From NCBI RefSeq assembly GCF_011761565.1, contig NZ_JAASRM010000001.1, positions 1,116,139 through 1,180,138 of the forward strand: DNA of 64,000 bases. The letters run 5' to 3'. Shown here in pieces: positions 45,037-52,930 of the stretch (the first letter of the stretch is position 1; each line of letters starts with the position of its first letter). Source of the stretch: Rhizomicrobium palustre (GTDB lineage: Bacteria > Pseudomonadota > Alphaproteobacteria > Micropepsales > Micropepsaceae). The notes under the pieces were generated by a model. It was not told the DNA's origin. It searched no databases and saw only the letters and a list, made by a program, of their open reading frames with translations. The translations under genes were made by a program, and so were the position numbers.

Positions 45037-47367
45037 ATGCATAACAACGGCATGGTGCCCAAGGGGCCTGGAGAGGTACGCGGCTTCGGCGAGATGACCG
45101 GGGCGGAGATCGCGGGGTTTGTGCCGCATCGCCCCTCGCGCCCGGAGAAATCCGAAGGCGGCAAGCGCTTCGAGCTGGTCAGCGAATATTCCCCCGCGGG
45201 CGATCAGCCTACCGCCATCGCTGATCTTGTCGGCGGTGTTAACGCCAATGAGCGCGATCAGGTGCTGCTCGGCGTCACCGGTTCCGGCAAGACCTTCACC
45301 ATGGCGAAAGTGATCGAGACGGTGCAGCGCCCCGCTTTGATCCTGGCGCCGAACAAGACCCTGGCCGCCCAGCTTTACGCCGAGATGAAAGGCTTCTTCC
45401 CCAATAACGCGGTGGAGTATTTCGTCTCGTACTACGACTACTACCAGCCGGAAGCCTATATCCCGCGCACCGACACCTATATCGAGAAAGACTCCTCCAT
45501 CAACGAGGAGATCGACCGCATGCGCCATTCGGCGACGCGCGCGATTTTGGAACGCGATGACGTGATCATCGTGGCCTCGGTGTCGTGCATCTATGGTATC
45601 GGCGCGGTGGAAACCTATTCCGGCACGGCGCTCAGCATCCAAAAAGGCGAGCGCATCGACCGCAATGATTTGATGCGCGATCTTTCCGCCCTGCAATACC
45701 GCCGCAACGATGCCAATTTCGTCCGTGGTGCCTTCCGGGTACGCGGCGATGTGATCGACATTTTCCCGGCGCATTATGAAGACCGCGCTTGGCGCGTGGA
45801 ACTTTTCGGCGATGAGGTCGACAGTATCAGCGAATTCGATCCCCTCACCGGGCGTTCGGCGGGCGTGCTCGATCAGATCAAGATTTACGCCAACTCGCAT
45901 TATGTCACGCCGCGCCCGACGCTCGCGCAAGCGATGAAAGGCATCAAGGCGGAGCTGATCACCACGCTGGAGCGCTTCCGAAAGGAAGGAAAGCTGCTTG
46001 AAGCGCAGCGGCTGGAACAGCGCACCACCTTTGATCTGGAGATGATCGAGGCGACGGGTTCTTGTGCGGGCATCGAAAACTATTCGCGCTGGCTGACAGG
46101 ACGCAAACCCGGCGAGCCGCCGCCGACCCTGTTCGAATATCTGCCCGATGATGCGCTGGTCTTCGCCGACGAAAGCCATGTGACCGTGCCGCAGATCGGC
46201 GCCATGTATAAGGGCGACTATCGGCGCAAATCGACGCTTTCCGAATATGGCTTCCGCCTGCCCTCCTGCATGGATAACCGGCCGCTGAAATTCGATGAGT
46301 GGGACGCGATGCGCCCGCAAACCGTTTATGTCTCGGCGACGCCCGGCAATTGGGAGATGGACCGCACCGGCGGCGTTTTCACCGAACAGGTCATCCGCCC
46401 GACCGGCTTGATCGATCCGCCGGTGGAAATCCGACCTGTCGAAAGCCAGGTGGATGATCTCATCAGCGAATGCCGCATCGTGGCGAAGAAAGGCTATCGC
46501 GCCCTCGTCACCACGCTGACCAAGAAAATGGCCGAAGACCTCACCGAATATATGCATGAGCAGGGCATTCGCGTACGCTATATGCATTCGGATGTGGATA
46601 CGGTGGAGCGCATCGAGATCATCCGCGATCTGCGCCTGGGCGCCTTCGATGTCTTGATCGGCATCAACCTGCTCCGCGAGGGCCTCGACATTCCCGAATG
46701 CGCCCTAGTCTGCATTCTCGACGCCGACAAGGAAGGCTTCCTCAGAAGCGAGACCAGCCTGATCCAGACCATCGGGCGCGCGGCGCGTAACGTCGACGCC
46801 AAGGTCATTCTTTATGCGGATCATGTCACCGGCTCGATGGAGCGGGCGATGGCCGAAACCACGCGCCGCCGCGAGAAGCAGCAGGCCTATAACGCCGCCC
46901 ATGGCATCACGCCGCAAAGCGTGAAGAAGAACATCGCCGACATCATGGGCTCGATGTATGAGCGCGATCACGTCACGGTCGGCCAAGGCGAGCTCGGCTT
47001 CGCTGAGGACGGCAAGGAGTTCATCGGCCACAACATCAAGGCGCATCTCGCCGATCTCGAAAAGCGCATGAAGGAAGCCGCCGCCGATCTCGAATTCGAG
47101 GAAGCCGCGCGGCTGCGCGACGAAATCAAGCGCCTGACGGTGGTCGAGCTTGCCATCTCCGACGATCCCTTCGCGCGGCAGTCCCAAGTAGAAAATGCCG
47201 TGGATCAAGCCTTTCTCGACGCGGTGCGCGACGGCGCCGACCCCATGGCGGGCCTTGGCGGCAAACCGAAAAAAGCCTCGCGCTCGGCGGCGGGCAAAGC
47301 GGGCGGCAAAGGCAAACGGCTGGATAGGCCGGGCCGCCCCAAAACCTTCGGCAGCCGGAGCAAGTAA
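45037..47367 (+). CDS. uvrB: UvrABC excinuclease subunit B
   Basis: Damage-verification helicase of nucleotide excision repair, 776 residues. Landmarks: entry [17 protein letters not shown], Walker [14 protein letters not shown] (about 79-91), beta-hairpin [17 protein letters not shown], motifs DESHVT and NLLREGLD, and a C-terminal UVR motif for UvrC ([20 protein letters not shown], about 666-685) before a basic Gly/Lys tail. The first 40 residues are variable, so ATG 45052 or 45094 could also serve; no start has a strong ribosome binding site. It is flanked by accessory genes on both sides. Confidence 0.96.
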
Positions 47368-47420
47368 GCACGCGCCTCTTGCACGCGGGCTATCACATAC
47401 GGAGTCGGTCACACCAAAGC

Positions 47421-47619
47421 TGTCATTCCCGGCCGAGCAGAGCGAGCATTTCGCGAGCGCCGCGAGGGGAAGGGAACCCAGGTTGAACCGGCAAGACGAT
47501 CTCAAAGAAATAGTGCGGAGTTTGGTATATTTTGAAGGCACCAAACAGGCTTCAACACCTGGGTTCCCTTCCCCTTCGCCCATCTTCGCGCTGCTCGATG
47601 CGCTCGGCCGGGAATGACA
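47421..47619. repeat. Large palindromic element downstream of uvrB
   Basis: 199-bp element: 18-bp perfect outer arms TGTCATTCCCGGCCGAGC/GCTCGGCCGGGAATGACA and inner arms AAGGGAACCCAGGT/ACCTGGGTTCCCTT around a unique centre. It is related in arm style to the TGTCATCCCGG family. Its right end adjoins a truncated XRE gene, as if the element had landed in or deleted that gene. Confidence 0.85.
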
Positions 47620-47640
47620 GTGAGGTTTAAAGTCGCGCGC

Positions 47641-47736
47641 ATGGAGAGCGGCCGCACCCTGCCCTCCACCTCATCGCTGGTGAAATACGCCAAAGCCGTG
47701 GGGCATAAAGTCGAGATCGAGCTCAAGGCGGGGTGA
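47641..47736 (+). pseudogene. C-terminal fragment of an XRE/HigA-type antitoxin
   Basis: 31 codons reading MESGRTLPSTSSLVKYAKAV then GHKVEIELKAG. This is the end of an XRE helix-turn-helix antitoxin (normal form: sRiESGr..PSl.TL.kyA.A.G..v.i.l). In-frame KVAR immediately upstream extends the match to 47629. The HTH itself is absent; the palindromic element ends 22 bases before the ATG. No toxin gene is adjacent. Confidence 0.6.
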
Positions 47737-47811
47737 TCAGCGCCCACCCACAGTCGGTCCGCTCGCAAGCAGAATTAGATCTGCCCCCGGATTTTTTCGG
47801 AAATTCGGAAT

Positions 47812-48618
47812 CTAAATTGCATAGGAAGAAACAGCAAAATCGAGCAGGCGCCTCACATATGGCGCTTTAATAAAGTGGACAAAACTTCCACCTGCTCGAT
47901 TAATCACCCCAGCGAATTTCAAAGTGAGATGACCATCAAAGACGATAGCGAAAACAGGCCCGCCAGAGAAACCGTTCGGATCGACGTGCATCTCTGAAAG
48001 CAATTTGCATCTACCAACTGCTGGGTCTGAAATTTGCCCATTCGGATCACAAAGCAGTGCACGAACTGCCCTCCCAACGCAGTTCGCTTCGGCAACATCG
48101 TAATTCTGATCCGCAAATGCGCATCCAAATGCTAAGTAAAGGATGACGTCATCACCATCACTAAGGGCGGCAGCATTGTCGAAATGAAAAAACGTCCGTT
48201 CAATTTCACTGGAATTATCTGCTTGCCTGGTAAATTCAAAAGCCGATAGATCGGTGTAATCGCTGTCCGCCAACTTCGGCGAATTGCAATATGTGTATCC
48301 TGCTGAGCTGATGAACGCTTGTGTTTCCGAAACTAAAACGCCAACATCTACGATCGACACGCCAGCCAACTGATGTTTCGTCGAAATGAGAAATTTCTTT
48401 CCAAGGTAATTCAATCCAGTTGCTGACCCCAATAGTTGGAAGGGGTATGCTTCATCATGCGTAAAACACACTAAATTCTGAGCAAATAGGTGGAGCCGCA
48501 ACTGAAGGGAATCCGCGGGTATAAGTACTCCGTGGACTTCGACGCTCGTCCGCGTCTTTCGGTCGAGCTTACCTAAATTTGGGTGCCTATTAAAAAATTC
48601 TGCGAGCCGATCAACCAA
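47812..48618 (-). CDS. Trypsin-like serine peptidase domain protein, low-GC accessory gene
   Basis: 268 residues with a probable S1 peptidase triad: His in FLISTKHQL (about 82), Asp in DYTDLSAFEF (about 124), Ser in DPNGFSGGPVFAI (about 218). There is no signal peptide and no PDZ domain, so it should act in the cytoplasm. Base composition is much lower in G+C than the neighbours, with codon use to match, which points to transfer. The only start in the upstream open frame is TTG 48618 (an in-frame stop lies at 48655-48657), so a 5' truncation is possible. Cytosolic proteases of this kind occur in defence islands; this role is inferred. Confidence 0.6.
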   Translation of the reverse strand: MVDRLAEFFNRHPNLGKLDRKTRTSVEVHGVLIPADSLQLRLHLFAQNLVCFTHDEAYPFQLLGSATGLNYLGKKFLISTKHQLAGVSIVDVGVLVSETQAFISSAGYTYCNSPKLADSDYTDLSAFEFTRQADNSSEIERTFFHFDNAAALSDGDDVILYLAFGCAFADQNYDVAEANCVGRAVRALLCDPNGQISDPAVGRCKLLSEMHVDPNGFSGGPVFAIVFDGHLTLKFAGVINRAGGSFVHFIKAPYVRRLLDFAVSSYAI

Positions 48619-49244
48619 GCAACTAGAGACCTGTTTGTATGGAGCGGAAGCACATCATCTACGTCTCGCCCAGCATGTTCGCTATTTGGTGCAACTTTGT
48701 GCTGGGGCATAACCGTAAGCGGATACGCTTGAGAAGACTAGGCCAGAATTGCGGTTCAGCCTCACCATTTTCGGCCACTCCCCCGCAACGCAAAGTCGCA
48801 TACTGTCACAGTAAGAGCCTTTCCTGAGACGGCAAGAACCTCGATAGCCGGGGCGGTGTTTGCCTTCGCAGAAACGCCCACCTTGAAGCTCCCCTCCTCC
48901 CTCCCCACATCAAACACTGCGCCTCTTGCGCTGTTGTTTGACATTGCTGGTGAGAACAATATGCAGGCCGCGTTTTTGATCGCGTGATTTTCGCGTGCGT
49001 TCAAAGATTTACCGTCCAAATCGCCGATTTGTTTTCGCGTTTTTTATCGCCACACTCGAACACGCCTCCACCCGCCAGGCCCCGCCCAAACTTTCCGGCG
49101 ATAAGCGCGCGCTATCAACGCGTTAGCGGGAAAAACGGGCATTCGAACGTAAATTTTTCATTTTCCTATCCCCGCTCTATCCCCGCTTCATCCCCGCGCC
49201 CAGGCGCCAAGACTCAGCTACACTCGCTCAAGTCCGGGGGTGCC
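48619..49244. other. Gene-free stretch, lower GC
   Basis: 626 bp between the peptidase and the DUF695 pseudogene. Two weak ORFs (48639-48827 plus, 48762-49019 minus) lack family features and good ribosome binding sites. An AT-rich part (49000-49060) and a triple 11-nt repeat (49166-49198) lie near the 3' end. Confidence 0.5.
49166..49198 (+). repeat. Three tandem 11-nt direct repeats
   Basis: CTATCCCCGCT twice, then TCATCCCCGCG, with an 11-base period (one helical turn), 47 bases before the DUF695 start. Confidence 0.6.
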
Positions 49245-49695
49245 ATGGGCTGGGAGTATTTCTTCTGCGAGATCGGCGGCGAAGCGGCAGTGATGGCCGT
49301 GGACCGCAGCCTTAAGGCTGCCGCAGAAAACACGTCCCTACCTCGTCTATATGCGTGTCTATAAATCGCCCAGGCTCGATGTCACGCTGGAGCAGGGCGA
49401 AGAAGCGCGCCTCTTCGAAGGCATCGAGGCTTTTGTGGAGCGCATCGCGGCGCTCTTCGATGCCGTCTATGCCGGGCGCAGCAGCACCGCCGAAGCGCGC
49501 GTCTATGTTTTCTATGATGGCGAAGGGCGCTATTTGCAGCGCTGGCTCGAGCGCAGCTTCAAAAGCCTTGGCGACTATGGCTATGAGCGCTCCATCGGCT
49601 GGGGCCGCGATCCGGAATGGAAAGTCTATCGCGATTTTCTTCTGCCCGGCCCCAAGGAGCGCGAGGCCATCGCTACGCGGGCACTGAAAGCCTGA
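49245..49695 (+). pseudogene. DUF695-family gene interrupted by a frameshift
   Basis: The first frame (ATG 49245, behind GGGGG) reads MGWEYFFCEIGGEAAVMAVD and RSLKAAAE, then runs to a stop at 49364 after a non-homologous end. The family sequence goes on in another frame as TRPYLVYMRVYKSPRL, and reaches 49695 with YVFYDGEGRYLQRWLER. Removing one A from the AAAA run at 49327-49330 would restore one protein of about 150 residues (EFYFC...YLVYMRV... as in DUF695). It is a fresh mutation, a sequencing error or a slippage site. Confidence 0.65.
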
Positions 49696-49803
49696 GCAAG
49701 GCACGCGCGGCAAATTCGCCGCACCTGTATATGAAATGGACAGATTGGGAACTTGGCCCCCCTGCCCCCGTTCTTCCGGCACGAGCGGAGGAGTTCTTTT
49801 TTC

Positions 49804-50646
49804 ATGGCTTTGCGTAAGGTATTGGTGGCGTCCCTGTTGTGCGGCGCGGTGGCGATGAGTGCGGCTTGGGCCCAAGACCCGCAGCCTTCAAGTGCAAGCG
49901 GCAACGTCGCTTCGGAAGTGCCGCAGGAAGGTGAATCCAATTGGGCGGGCTACGCGTCCCTTGGCGCCAGCTTGCTGCCCGAATATGAGGGCTCCAACTC
50001 CTATATTCTGATGCCTTATGTGGAAGGGCGGCTGAACTACAAGAATTATTACGCGCGCTTCGAAGGCGGCACGCTGCGATTCAATCTGATCGACAACGAA
50101 GCGTTTCATGCGGGCCCGTTGATCGGCTTCCGGCGCGGACGCGGCAATGTCAATTCGCCGGTACATTCCTTCAAGCATCTCGACGATACCGAGACCGCAG
50201 GCGGCTTCATCGAATGGGAGCATGTCGCCGAAGACCCGCGCTCCGGCGAGACGGTGTATCTCACCGCCGATAATGCCGTATACGGAGAAAAAGGCGGCTG
50301 GCAGATCGTTCTGCGCGGCACCGCGCGCCGCCCCATCGAATGGGTGAACCCGGGCTTCATCGTCTCCCTGACCGGCGATCTTTCCTGGGTCTCGCGGCCT
50401 TATATGCAGAAGTATTTCGGCGTCACGCCATCGGATTCGATCGCCAGCGGCATGCCGATCTATACTCCGGGCGATGGCTTCAACCGCGCGGGCGTGGCGC
50501 TGTCGGTGGATCAGTTCTTGTCGCGCCATTTCAGCGTCGGGCTTCGCGGCTATTATGCGAGCCTGCTCGGCAAGGCATCGTCGAGCCCGGTGACCTCATC
50601 GTCGGATCAGTTCTTCGCGGGTGTGGTGGCGGGCTACGTGTTGTAG
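49804..50646 (+). CDS. MipA/OmpV family outer membrane protein (second copy)
   Basis: 280 residues: a signal peptide (AAWA-QDPQ, about 23), a short linker, and a beta-barrel from AGYASLGASLLPEYEGSNSY, the MipA signature. Barrel strands such as LMPYVEGRLNYKNYYARFEGG follow, and the last strand is FFAGVVAGYVL, without a terminal aromatic residue. ATG 49804 follows CGGAGGAG. It is a distant paralogue of the product of 19482-20282, with no regulator beside it. Convergent with the three mini-protein genes. Confidence 0.82.
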   Translation: MALRKVLVASLLCGAVAMSAAWAQDPQPSSASGNVASEVPQEGESNWAGYASLGASLLPEYEGSNSYILMPYVEGRLNYKNYYARFEGGTLRFNLIDNEAFHAGPLIGFRRGRGNVNSPVHSFKHLDDTETAGGFIEWEHVAEDPRSGETVYLTADNAVYGEKGGWQIVLRGTARRPIEWVNPGFIVSLTGDLSWVSRPYMQKYFGVTPSDSIASGMPIYTPGDGFNRAGVALSVDQFLSRHFSVGLRGYYASLLGKASSSPVTSSSDQFFAGVVAGYVL

Positions 50647-50664: not shown

Positions 50665-51012
50665 TCAGAAGCGGCGTTCCGACCAGCGGCAATAATCGCC
50701 ATCACCATCACAGATCCAGCGACCACTGACATAGCGGTGATGGCGATACCAATCATGCCGCTCATGCTGCCAATAGCTCGACCAATAAGGATCATAGTCG
50801 CGGCGCCAGCGCGGACGGAATTCATAGGTCCGGCAATAGCCGTAAGGCTCGCATACGGTGCGCCAGCAGCGGTCGCCATCGCCGTCGCAGCGCGTGCGTC
50901 CGGCATCATAATCAGGTCCCCAGCCCCAACCATGGGCTTCTGCGGGGGTGGAAAGCGCAATCCCGAAGCCGATCACGGCACCCAAGATTGCCATGGAAGA
51001 AATCCGTTTCAT
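50665..51012 (-). CDS. Secreted Cys/Tyr/Arg/Trp-rich mini-protein A (CDGDGD motif)
   Basis: 115 residues: a signal peptide (AEA-HGWG, about 26) and a mature part with two copies of a CDGDGDxC motif (TRCDGDGDRCWRTVCEPYGYC; RWICDGDGDYCRW at the C-terminus) around a Tyr/Arg/His/Trp-rich centre. Six cysteines suggest disulphides in the periplasm or outside. The Asp-Gly pattern could bind calcium; this is a guess. No known family is recognised. It aligns along its length with the gene at 51379-51705. ATG 51012 follows AAGGGAG, with GAACGAT before the start as in that gene. Confidence 0.7.
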   Translation of the reverse strand: MKRISSMAILGAVIGFGIALSTPAEAHGWGWGPDYDAGRTRCDGDGDRCWRTVCEPYGYCRTYEFRPRWRRDYDPYWSSYWQHERHDWYRHHRYVSGRWICDGDGDYCRWSERRF

Positions 51013-51127
51013 CGTTCAGCTCCCTTGAACGTGATGCGGGATAAACATCGCGCCTTGCGGCTGAACGGCGGCTGAACAGAGCAGTCAGGGAGGCGCCAGG
51101 AAAGCACCTCCCCAAGGCGCGAAGAGA

Positions 51128-51355
51128 TCAGGGATTTCGATATTCCCAATGGCAGCGATCGCCATCTTCATCGCAGACGCGCACGCGGCGGGTGTCGTCG
51201 CGGCGATCGCGGTCATGCCAATATTCGCGATGTTCATAGCGATCGCGATCGTAATGGCCGTCGCGGTAATAGCGGCCATCATCGTCATAGCGGCTGGCAC
51301 AGCCTGCCGTTGCCAGCAGCGCCACGCCCGAAAGCGCGAGAAGCAAATTGCGCAT
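51128..51355 (-). CDS. Lipoprotein mini-protein B (C-terminal CDEDGDRC motif)
   Basis: 75 residues: a lipoprotein-type signal ending TAGC (Cys19), then a mature part of almost only Asp, Arg, Tyr and His (RYDDDGRYYRDGHYDRDRY), closing with RVCDEDGDRCHWEYR. The final motif matches the C-terminus of mini-protein A. ATG 51355 follows GGAGGTAATC. It lies in tandem between the other two family members, 23 bases after the stop of the third. The extreme polar composition suggests an unstructured, ion-binding envelope protein. Confidence 0.65.
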   Translation of the reverse strand: MRNLLLALSGVALLATAGCASRYDDDGRYYRDGHYDRDRYEHREYWHDRDRRDDTRRVRVCDEDGDRCHWEYRNP

Positions 51356-51378
51356 GATTACCTCCAGTTTGTTGGCGT

Positions 51379-51705
51379 TTAGCGCCGTTCCCATCGGCAA
51401 TATTCAGACGCGCCATCGCAGTTCCATCGGCCGTGGTGGCGCCGCCATTCCTCGCGGTCATAACGTCCATAGCCGTGATATCGGCCATAGGCATAAGGAT
51501 CGTAGTCATTACGATAGCCCTGCCAGCCCACGGGAATGTGGCGGGCGCGGCAATCATCGCCATCATAGTCACACGTCACGCGCACGCAGCGTCCGCCGCC
51601 GACATCACAGCGCGTATAGCCGCGTTCCGCAGCGGCTGGGCCCATGGTGAAGAGTCCGAGAAGGCCGCCGATTGCGGCCGTTTTCAAAACAGTGCTCCAG
51701 CGCAT
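51379..51705 (-). CDS. Secreted Cys/Tyr/Arg/Trp-rich mini-protein C
   Basis: 108 residues: a signal peptide (AAA-ERGY, about 26), then TRCDVGGGRCVRVTCDYDGD and DCR, a DYDPYAYGRYHGYGRYD centre, and RWNCDGASEYCRWERR at the end. Cysteine spacing and the C-terminal C-x5-C-R-W box match mini-protein A, so the two are paralogues. ATG 51705 follows GGAGTGAACGAT. It is the first gene of the three-gene minus-strand run. Confidence 0.7.
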   Translation of the reverse strand: MRWSTVLKTAAIGGLLGLFTMGPAAAERGYTRCDVGGGRCVRVTCDYDGDDCRARHIPVGWQGYRNDYDPYAYGRYHGYGRYDREEWRRHHGRWNCDGASEYCRWERR

Positions 51706-51859: not shown

Positions 51860-52480
51860 TTAGACGTTCTTGCGCGGCGGCTCGTAACAGGAACGGCAGC
51901 GCACCTGATATTCCCCGGCGTCACCCACCACCAATTGGCGGTCATCGGAGATGATGCGATGGGAGATGTAGCCCGCATCCGAACCGCAGACCATGCAAAC
52001 GCCGGTCAGCTTTTCCACGGAATCGGCAATTGCCAGAAGGCCGGGGATGGGACCGAAGGGCTCCTCGGCGAAATCCATATCGAGCCCGGCGATGATGATG
52101 CGCAGCTGGGTATCGCAGCGCTGGCGCAGAAGCTCGCGAATGGCGCGGCCGAACCAGCCCAAGCTATCGCGCATCGGGGTGTCGAGCGGGAAGAACTGCG
52201 CCTCGTCTACTGCCAGCACATCGAACTTGTTGAGGCCGACGATCTTCCAGAACTCTTCCTCGTCGCGCACCATCACGGCGGAAAGCTGATCGGTGATCTC
52301 GGTCGAGCCATCGGAATTCACGGCGCGGCTGGCGATATAGCCCTGGGTGCGGGTGTCGTGCGCAGGCTTGATGATGCGCACGCGCTTTCGGGCATATTGC
52401 GCGCGGTGCAGCTTGGAGATGAGCCGCTCGGTCTTGCCCGAGAACATCGGCCCAACGATGACTTCCAGACGCGCCGTCAT
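51860..52480 (-). CDS. tdk: Thymidine kinase (type II)
   Basis: 206 residues. P-loop GPMFSGKT (10-17), nucleotide salvage motif VDEAQFF with catalytic Glu (about 93), lasso region AGLDMDFAEEPFG, and a structural zinc site with CMVCG (about 153-157) and CRSC (about 196-199). Phosphorylates thymidine in the salvage pathway; cytoplasmic tetramer. Single-gene unit. Confidence 0.96.
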   Translation of the reverse strand: MTARLEVIVGPMFSGKTERLISKLHRAQYARKRVRIIKPAHDTRTQGYIASRAVNSDGSTEITDQLSAVMVRDEEEFWKIVGLNKFDVLAVDEAQFFPLDTPMRDSLGWFGRAIRELLRQRCDTQLRIIIAGLDMDFAEEPFGPIPGLLAIADSVEKLTGVCMVCGSDAGYISHRIISDDRQLVVGDAGEYQVRCRSCYEPPRKNV

Positions 52481-52597: not shown

Positions 52598-52930
52598 TTA
52601 CGGTTTTGCCGCGTCCCCGCAAGGATAGAGCTTGACGGCAGCCTCATAGAGCGCGTCGTCATAGGGCTCCTTGCTCAACTTGTCGGCGGCGCTGGATCTC
52701 AGCCAGCTCAGCATTTCGCTGCCCGCATCGGTCTCCGAGACGTTTTTCGGCAGGCAAATCACCTTCGCCGCCAGAGCGTTGACCACATAGTCCTTCATCT
52801 TCAAGCGGCAGGTCGTGGTGTCCCGCGTGCAGGCGGTGAGGTATTCGGAAAGGGTTGGTATGCTTTGGGCACTCGCGCTCGCCAGCAGAACAACACTCAA
52901 GGCGGCGGATGCGATCAGAAAGGTCTTCAT
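52598..52930 (-). CDS. Rap1a/Tai-like small periplasmic protein
   Basis: 110 residues: a signal peptide (ASA-QSIP, about 22) and a helical domain with four Cys (TACTRDTTTC, VICLP, YPCG), a VICLPKNVS loop and AADKLSKEPYDDALYEAAVKLYPC at the end, which agree with the Rap1a/Tai fold. The founding members are immunity proteins against T6SS amidases, but many members have no such partner, and none is adjacent here. ATG 52930 follows GGGGGAGTTGCC. Confidence 0.65.
   Translation of the reverse strand: MKTFLIASAALSVVLLASASAQSIPTLSEYLTACTRDTTTCRLKMKDYVVNALAAKVICLPKNVSETDAGSEMLSWLRSSAADKLSKEPYDDALYEAAVKLYPCGDAAKP

Follow-up and report, generated by a model that had tools for sequence, protein, structure and literature searches.

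Three adjacent genes of a Rhizomicrobium genome, lying within the 64-kb stretch of DNA analysed here (the window, bases 1116139-1180138 of a single contig of 4,264,312 bases), appear to encode an unnamed and so far undescribed family of small exported proteins that share a cysteine-bounded acidic box, CDxDGDxC. We found that the box is expanded in the genus Rhizomicrobium, and that in the genome samples searched the family is almost confined to this one genus. Because the aspartates of the box alternate, cysteines flank them and the proteins carry export signals, we put first, at a probability of roughly 0.4, a disulphide-clasped acidic-loop module that is exported to the envelope and would hold a divalent cation there, most likely calcium.

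The three genes and their boxes

The initial annotation had described three adjacent minus-strand genes for exported proteins of 75-115 residues, and we found the corresponding open reading frames. Gene A (50665..51012, minus strand) encodes a 115-residue three-box protein, with CDGDGDRC at 50866..50889, CEPYGYC at 50833..50853 and CDGDGDYC at 50689..50712. The product of gene B (51128..51355, minus strand) has 75 residues and a single C-terminal box, CDEDGDRC, at 51152..51175. Gene C (51379..51705, minus strand) encodes a 108-residue three-box protein with CDVGGGRC at 51586..51609, CDYDGDDC at 51550..51573 and CDGASEYC at 51397..51420. All of these boxes are read from the minus strand. Four of them were located by pattern match, and the three degenerate ones (box 2 of A, with five residues between its cysteines, and boxes 1 and 3 of C) by codon count. 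The motifs quoted previously, CDGDGDYCRW in A, CDEDGDRCHW in B and CDGASEYCRW in C, were all present. A second, N-terminal cysteine cluster had also been reported for A and C; it exists, but is better described as two further copies of the same box. A and C are thus built of an N-terminal box pair and a C-terminal box, while B has the C-terminal box only.

Export signals were judged by eye alone throughout the family. On this basis A and C carry putative Sec-type signal peptides, and B, as had been suggested for the middle gene, is a predicted lipoprotein with the lipobox LATAG-C, its cysteine at residue 19. A purine-rich stretch resembling a ribosome-binding site precedes the ATG of all three genes, again by eye. 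Between 50400 and 52700 there were no promoter and no terminator predictions (0 and 0, below the shuffle counts), and no structured RNA in the window reached its gathering score.

Written as a DNA pattern, CDxDGDxC matched four times in the 4.26-Mb genome, twice in A and once each in B and C, and the reversed control pattern gave 0 matches. When the mature proteins were shuffled, the observed number of strict boxes was reached in 0 of 20000 shuffles for A, 1 of 20000 for B and 0 of 20000 for C. Since all four genomic matches fall in these genes, and in view of the shuffles and the selection described below, we ruled out a chance motif or a mis-called frame.

A and C align along their length, as proposed earlier, with 43% identity across most of the mature part and a local score of 183 (shuffles: mean 46.2, sd 9.1). 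B scored 62 against A and 64 against C (shuffles averaged 43.8 and 42.1, giving z of 2.2 and 2.7). The proposal of a tandem family with a lipoprotein form is supported: A and C are related and the box is common to all three. The pairwise similarity of B to A and C was not significant. Profiles of the soluble proteins and of the lipoproteins cross-matched mainly over the C-terminal part. A phylogeny of 27 members was poorly resolved, with good support for 6 of its 24 inner branches, and A and C paired weakly in it (90/51). The family genes are under purifying selection in the eight pairs compared, all with pN below pS; dN/dS was 0.19, 0.23, 0.26, 0.36, 0.42 and 0.48 in six pairs (0.42 being that of A and C), and dS was saturated in two more.

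For a census of the box we picked 36 distinct members (30 soluble proteins and 6 lipoproteins) by hand from their loci, giving 73 Cys-x6-Cys boxes. Conservation was high at D2 (61 boxes), D4 (65), G5 (69) and D6 (64), in contrast to positions 3 and 7, where Asp was found in 21 and 20 boxes (Fisher p < 1e-10 for each of six contrasts). All three aspartates were present in 56 of the 73 boxes, and D or N occupied all three positions in 57. These counts are too high, because most boxes came from searches that used the same box. Mature cysteines were even in number in 36/36 members, with the lipobox cysteine left out. Departures from the pattern were also seen. The first box often takes a shortened form, C-x-G-D-x-C, so that several members lack the full set of three aspartates there, and some boxes have lost two of them (CDVGGGRC and CDGASEYC of C, for example). 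One member, at L024, has three boxes in tandem. In three-box members the linker ranged from 19 to 52 residues.

Distribution and gene neighbourhood

We searched 69 genomes of the genus with a soluble-family profile of eight rows, one of them C itself (E 7.1e-40), at a threshold of E 0.001. Matches were obtained in 29 genomes. Ten of these (G009, G010, G022, G028, G029, G065, G069, G070, G078 and G086) hold shorter relatives that match via the signal peptide and first box; after reading the loci we counted soluble members in 19/69 genomes. Three boxes were found in 16 of the 19 (short boxes counted, among the proteins read), two boxes in G003 and G077, and a degenerate copy only in G032. The profile matched eight times in G082. 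It had no match in 27 genomes of other genera of the same family.

The DNA pattern gave a similar picture, with 77 matches in 27 of the 69 genus genomes against 3 reversed-control matches in 2, 3 against 0 in the 27 other genomes of the family, and 6 against 6 in 380 genomes of the class outside the genus. Among those 380 genomes at least two (G162 and G452) matched the profile at E 0.001, both weakly, with the first dozen or so candidates per genome scored; in G452 the matching protein has one box only, VCDEDGNCYR. With a second profile and a phylum sample of 398 genomes, the genome under study matched and 0 of the 397 others did at E 1e-4, again among the first dozen or so candidates per genome. 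At this depth of search, a wide alphaproteobacterial family is not supported. A strain-specific orphan, which the initial annotation had considered as a possible outcome, is ruled out because other species carry homologues. A plasmid or phage origin was rejected: protein A and one relative had no match in plasmids, nor had the relative, the only query used there, in phages.

Full-length lipoproteins of the B type (E 5.5e-28 or better) were found in 7/69 genus genomes, that is, in six besides the one under study. All seven belong to the eight genomes with a soluble member at E 3.4e-31 or better (Fisher p 7e-9), a value that overstates the link because the cut-offs were set post hoc and several of these genomes supplied rows to the two profiles, and that also ignores kinship. 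In six of the seven genomes the lipoprotein lies near a thymidine kinase gene. In two genomes the soluble gene and the lipoprotein are separate, 325 kb apart on the same contig in G061 and on different contigs in G033.

The neighbours of the three genes serve as context and are not part of the family. Thymidine kinase (tdk, 51860..52480, minus strand; PF00265, E 4.7e-40) lies 154 nt upstream of gene C, and a small Rap1a-like protein is encoded upstream of tdk (52598..52927, minus strand; PF18602 at 23.0 bits, under the cut-off of 27.7). Convergent with gene A is a gene for a MipA-family outer-membrane protein (49753..50646, plus strand; PF06629, E 7.6e-36). Besides the genome under study (G000), seven genus genomes have tdk near box genes or the lipoprotein (G021, G027, G032, G033, G061, G067 and G082); in the stretches read of G061 and G033 the lipoprotein is alone there and the soluble gene elsewhere. 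G072 lacks tdk in the stretch read, yet keeps Rap1a-like genes and MipA. Rap1a-like relatives were seen at the loci of G021, G027, G033, G061 and G072.

Some further features were noted at these loci. Small Rap1a-like proteins occur beside the tdk/box locus at L046 (158-487, 2028-2342 and 2603-2941) and L050 (1682-1948, 3304-3600 and 3888-4193), three of them in one 10-kb stretch; two such proteins were tested and fell under the PF18602 cut-off. An ORF at L046:9132-10310 has a signal-like start followed, near the N-terminus, by many FYGGINP copies. In G082 a gene for a Pal/OmpA-like lipoprotein (L045:5422-5985, by eye) adjoins two tandem box genes. In the window itself, about 2 kb (47400-49300) without a convincing gene separate a UvrB-like ORF (45037-47367, by eye) from the MipA region, and G+C is lower, 0.546, at 48001-50000.

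Predicted function and its rivals

The earlier statement that no named family fits these proteins agrees with our searches. No match of A, B or C in Pfam-A or NCBIfam (E up to 10) reached a curated cut-off. PHROGs gave no full-length match: A and C had none at E up to 1, and B matched a family of unknown function over residues 4-21 only, in the signal region (E 0.0038). Among the papers listed by literature searches, none dealt with such a family. By sequence, one PDB search gave a single chance-level match (E 0.41) and a second gave none; Foldseek against PDB had a best E of 1.4, with no match at E < 1. Two AlphaFold runs, which had different first sequences and nearly all alignment rows in common, gave a mean pLDDT of 61.2 for protein A (block means of 73-85 around boxes 1 and 2, and 75 at box 3) and of 50.4 for a mature relative (L003). 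Both low-confidence models show the arrangement strand-box-strand, in which five or six residues of each box form the loop.

In the oxidising periplasm, every box would be closed by its own disulphide, leaving a short loop pinned by a beta strand on either side. Its aspartates, at loop positions 1, 3 and 5, would face the interior and coordinate a divalent cation, calcium being the likeliest. At the N-terminus, two boxes may form a three-stranded meander and, at the C-terminus, one box may form a hairpin, with a flexible Tyr/Arg/Asp-rich linker between the two parts. Fixed to a membrane, the lipoprotein would work in the envelope together with the soluble members, and as a group they could stabilise the envelope, or buffer and bridge cations there. 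Ion binding, possibly of calcium, had been suggested by the initial annotation: the D-x-D-G-D pattern does point to an ion loop, but 0/73 boxes have the glycine that the published Dx[DN]xDG motif calls for, and comparison with solved structures gave nothing usable. That the boxes are a new, independently evolved ion-binding module, with a disulphide in place of the helix or glycine scaffold of known calcium loops, repeated one to three times in a genus-specific exported protein system that has a lipoprotein anchor, is a more ambitious proposal, which we consider rather doubtful.

The main rival, which we regard as possible, is that the box serves structure alone. It would be a beta hairpin locked by its disulphide, with a D-G turn, and act as a stable metal-free scaffold, while the proteins would coat the envelope or form an adhesion layer through their Tyr/Arg-rich linkers. 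Turns classically contain the pair D-G, and no loop residue is better conserved than G5 (69/73). The short C-x-G-D-x-C boxes retain this turn without the three aspartates, the glycine of the calcium motif is missing, and the linkers vary widely in length. On the other hand, D2 and D6 are kept almost like D4 while positions 3 and 7 vary, a pattern that a bare turn does not need and that would fit a chelating loop better; the models, of low confidence, also give an open loop and not strands continuing into a turn. A possible coat of the envelope, which the initial annotation had also raised, would fit the putative export signals and the lipobox.

Two other readings draw on the neighbours. It is improbable that the box proteins assist the MipA barrel, as accessory proteins or as sensors, in a role (not a fold) like that of MipB. 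In Pseudomonas aeruginosa the lipoprotein MipB co-purifies with MipA and the pair is proposed to sense polymyxins (PMC10936184). MipA is the convergent neighbour in three genomes (G000, G072 and G082), but the 10-kb stretches around the loci of G021, G027 and G067 (L043, L046 and L052) lack it, as do the stretches of about 3 kb of G061 and G033. The genes here are convergent and their products tiny, whereas MipB has a beta-lactamase fold and an operon in common with MipA (PMC10936184). We give very little credence to a role in secreted antagonism or immunity, although small exported cysteine proteins in tandem copies beside Rap1a-like, immunity-type genes could recall such components, with as many as eight profile matches in G082 and three Rap1a-like neighbours each in L046 and L050. 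No secretion-system gene was recognised among the ORFs of the loci read (by eye) or among eight scanned neighbours, and the two Rap1a-like proteins tested scored under the Pfam cut-off. Purifying selection and the lack of matches in plasmids or phages also argue against it.

Should the boxes prove to bind ions, they would represent an Asp loop of very small size closed by a disulphide, and offer a simple model of the origin of ion loops outside the cytoplasm. Even without ion binding, they define a testable family, in a soil genus, with a minimal and easily synthesised peptide.

Comparison with known systems and related proteins of the genus

The closest parallel to the proposed ion-holding loop is the Dx[DN]xDG calcium-binding loop, which is found in the EF-hand and other folds, in 16 contexts (Rigden et al. 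2011, PMC3123361). Both have three aspartates alternating in a short loop, and the published loop often lies outside the cytoplasm (PMC3123361). Unlike that loop, the box has glycine at position 6 in 0/73 cases (Arg is commonest, 28/73), a cysteine pair encloses it, and no later acidic ligand was identified in the box proteins. The LNR/Notch domain (PF00066) aligned to residues 32-53 of C, the first two boxes, at 14.4 bits (E 0.053), under its cut-off of 21.2, and did not match A or B. An Asp loop and cysteines also occur in the Excalibur domain. Pfam names this domain (PF05901) as calcium-binding; it had no match in A, B or C.

We also noted short lipoproteins with thrombospondin-3-like DxDxDG repeats (DRDRDGVPNRYDRDRDNDGVPN) in the same genus (L122, L123, L125, L127, L128, L129 and L133), whose repeat number varies between species. 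Full-length profile matches to this TSP3 type were found in 9/69 genus genomes, of which seven were read. Two were tested against Pfam: the PF02412 cut-off was reached by one and missed by the other, and PF05901 matched both, just under its cut-off. They resemble the box lipoprotein in being short and Tyr/Arg/Asp-rich with acidic loops, and the two profiles cross-match weakly. In contrast to the box lipoprotein, they have DxDxDG repeats without the box cysteines and sit in other genomes of the genus. Both full-length forms occur together in 0/69 genomes, a non-overlap expected by chance (p 0.36), and a replacement of one by the other was rejected. The TSP3-type lipoproteins make calcium plausible for this niche, while saying nothing direct about A, B and C.

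Another small exported family of the same genus, CNxxGDCWH ... YHEGRGYWRNGVWITF, also unnamed, was seen at L035-L037, L039-L041, L058:1928-2194, L059 and L060. Among 289 sampled genomes of the class it was present in at least two of the genus and at least one of another family. It differs from the box proteins in having a single box, whose cysteines are usually five residues apart, and its own conserved C-terminal part (GRGYWRxGVWITF). Like them, its members have a signal peptide followed by a box, one of these members adjoins a three-box gene at L058, and the form CDRDGDRCWHT (L037 and L060) bridges the two.
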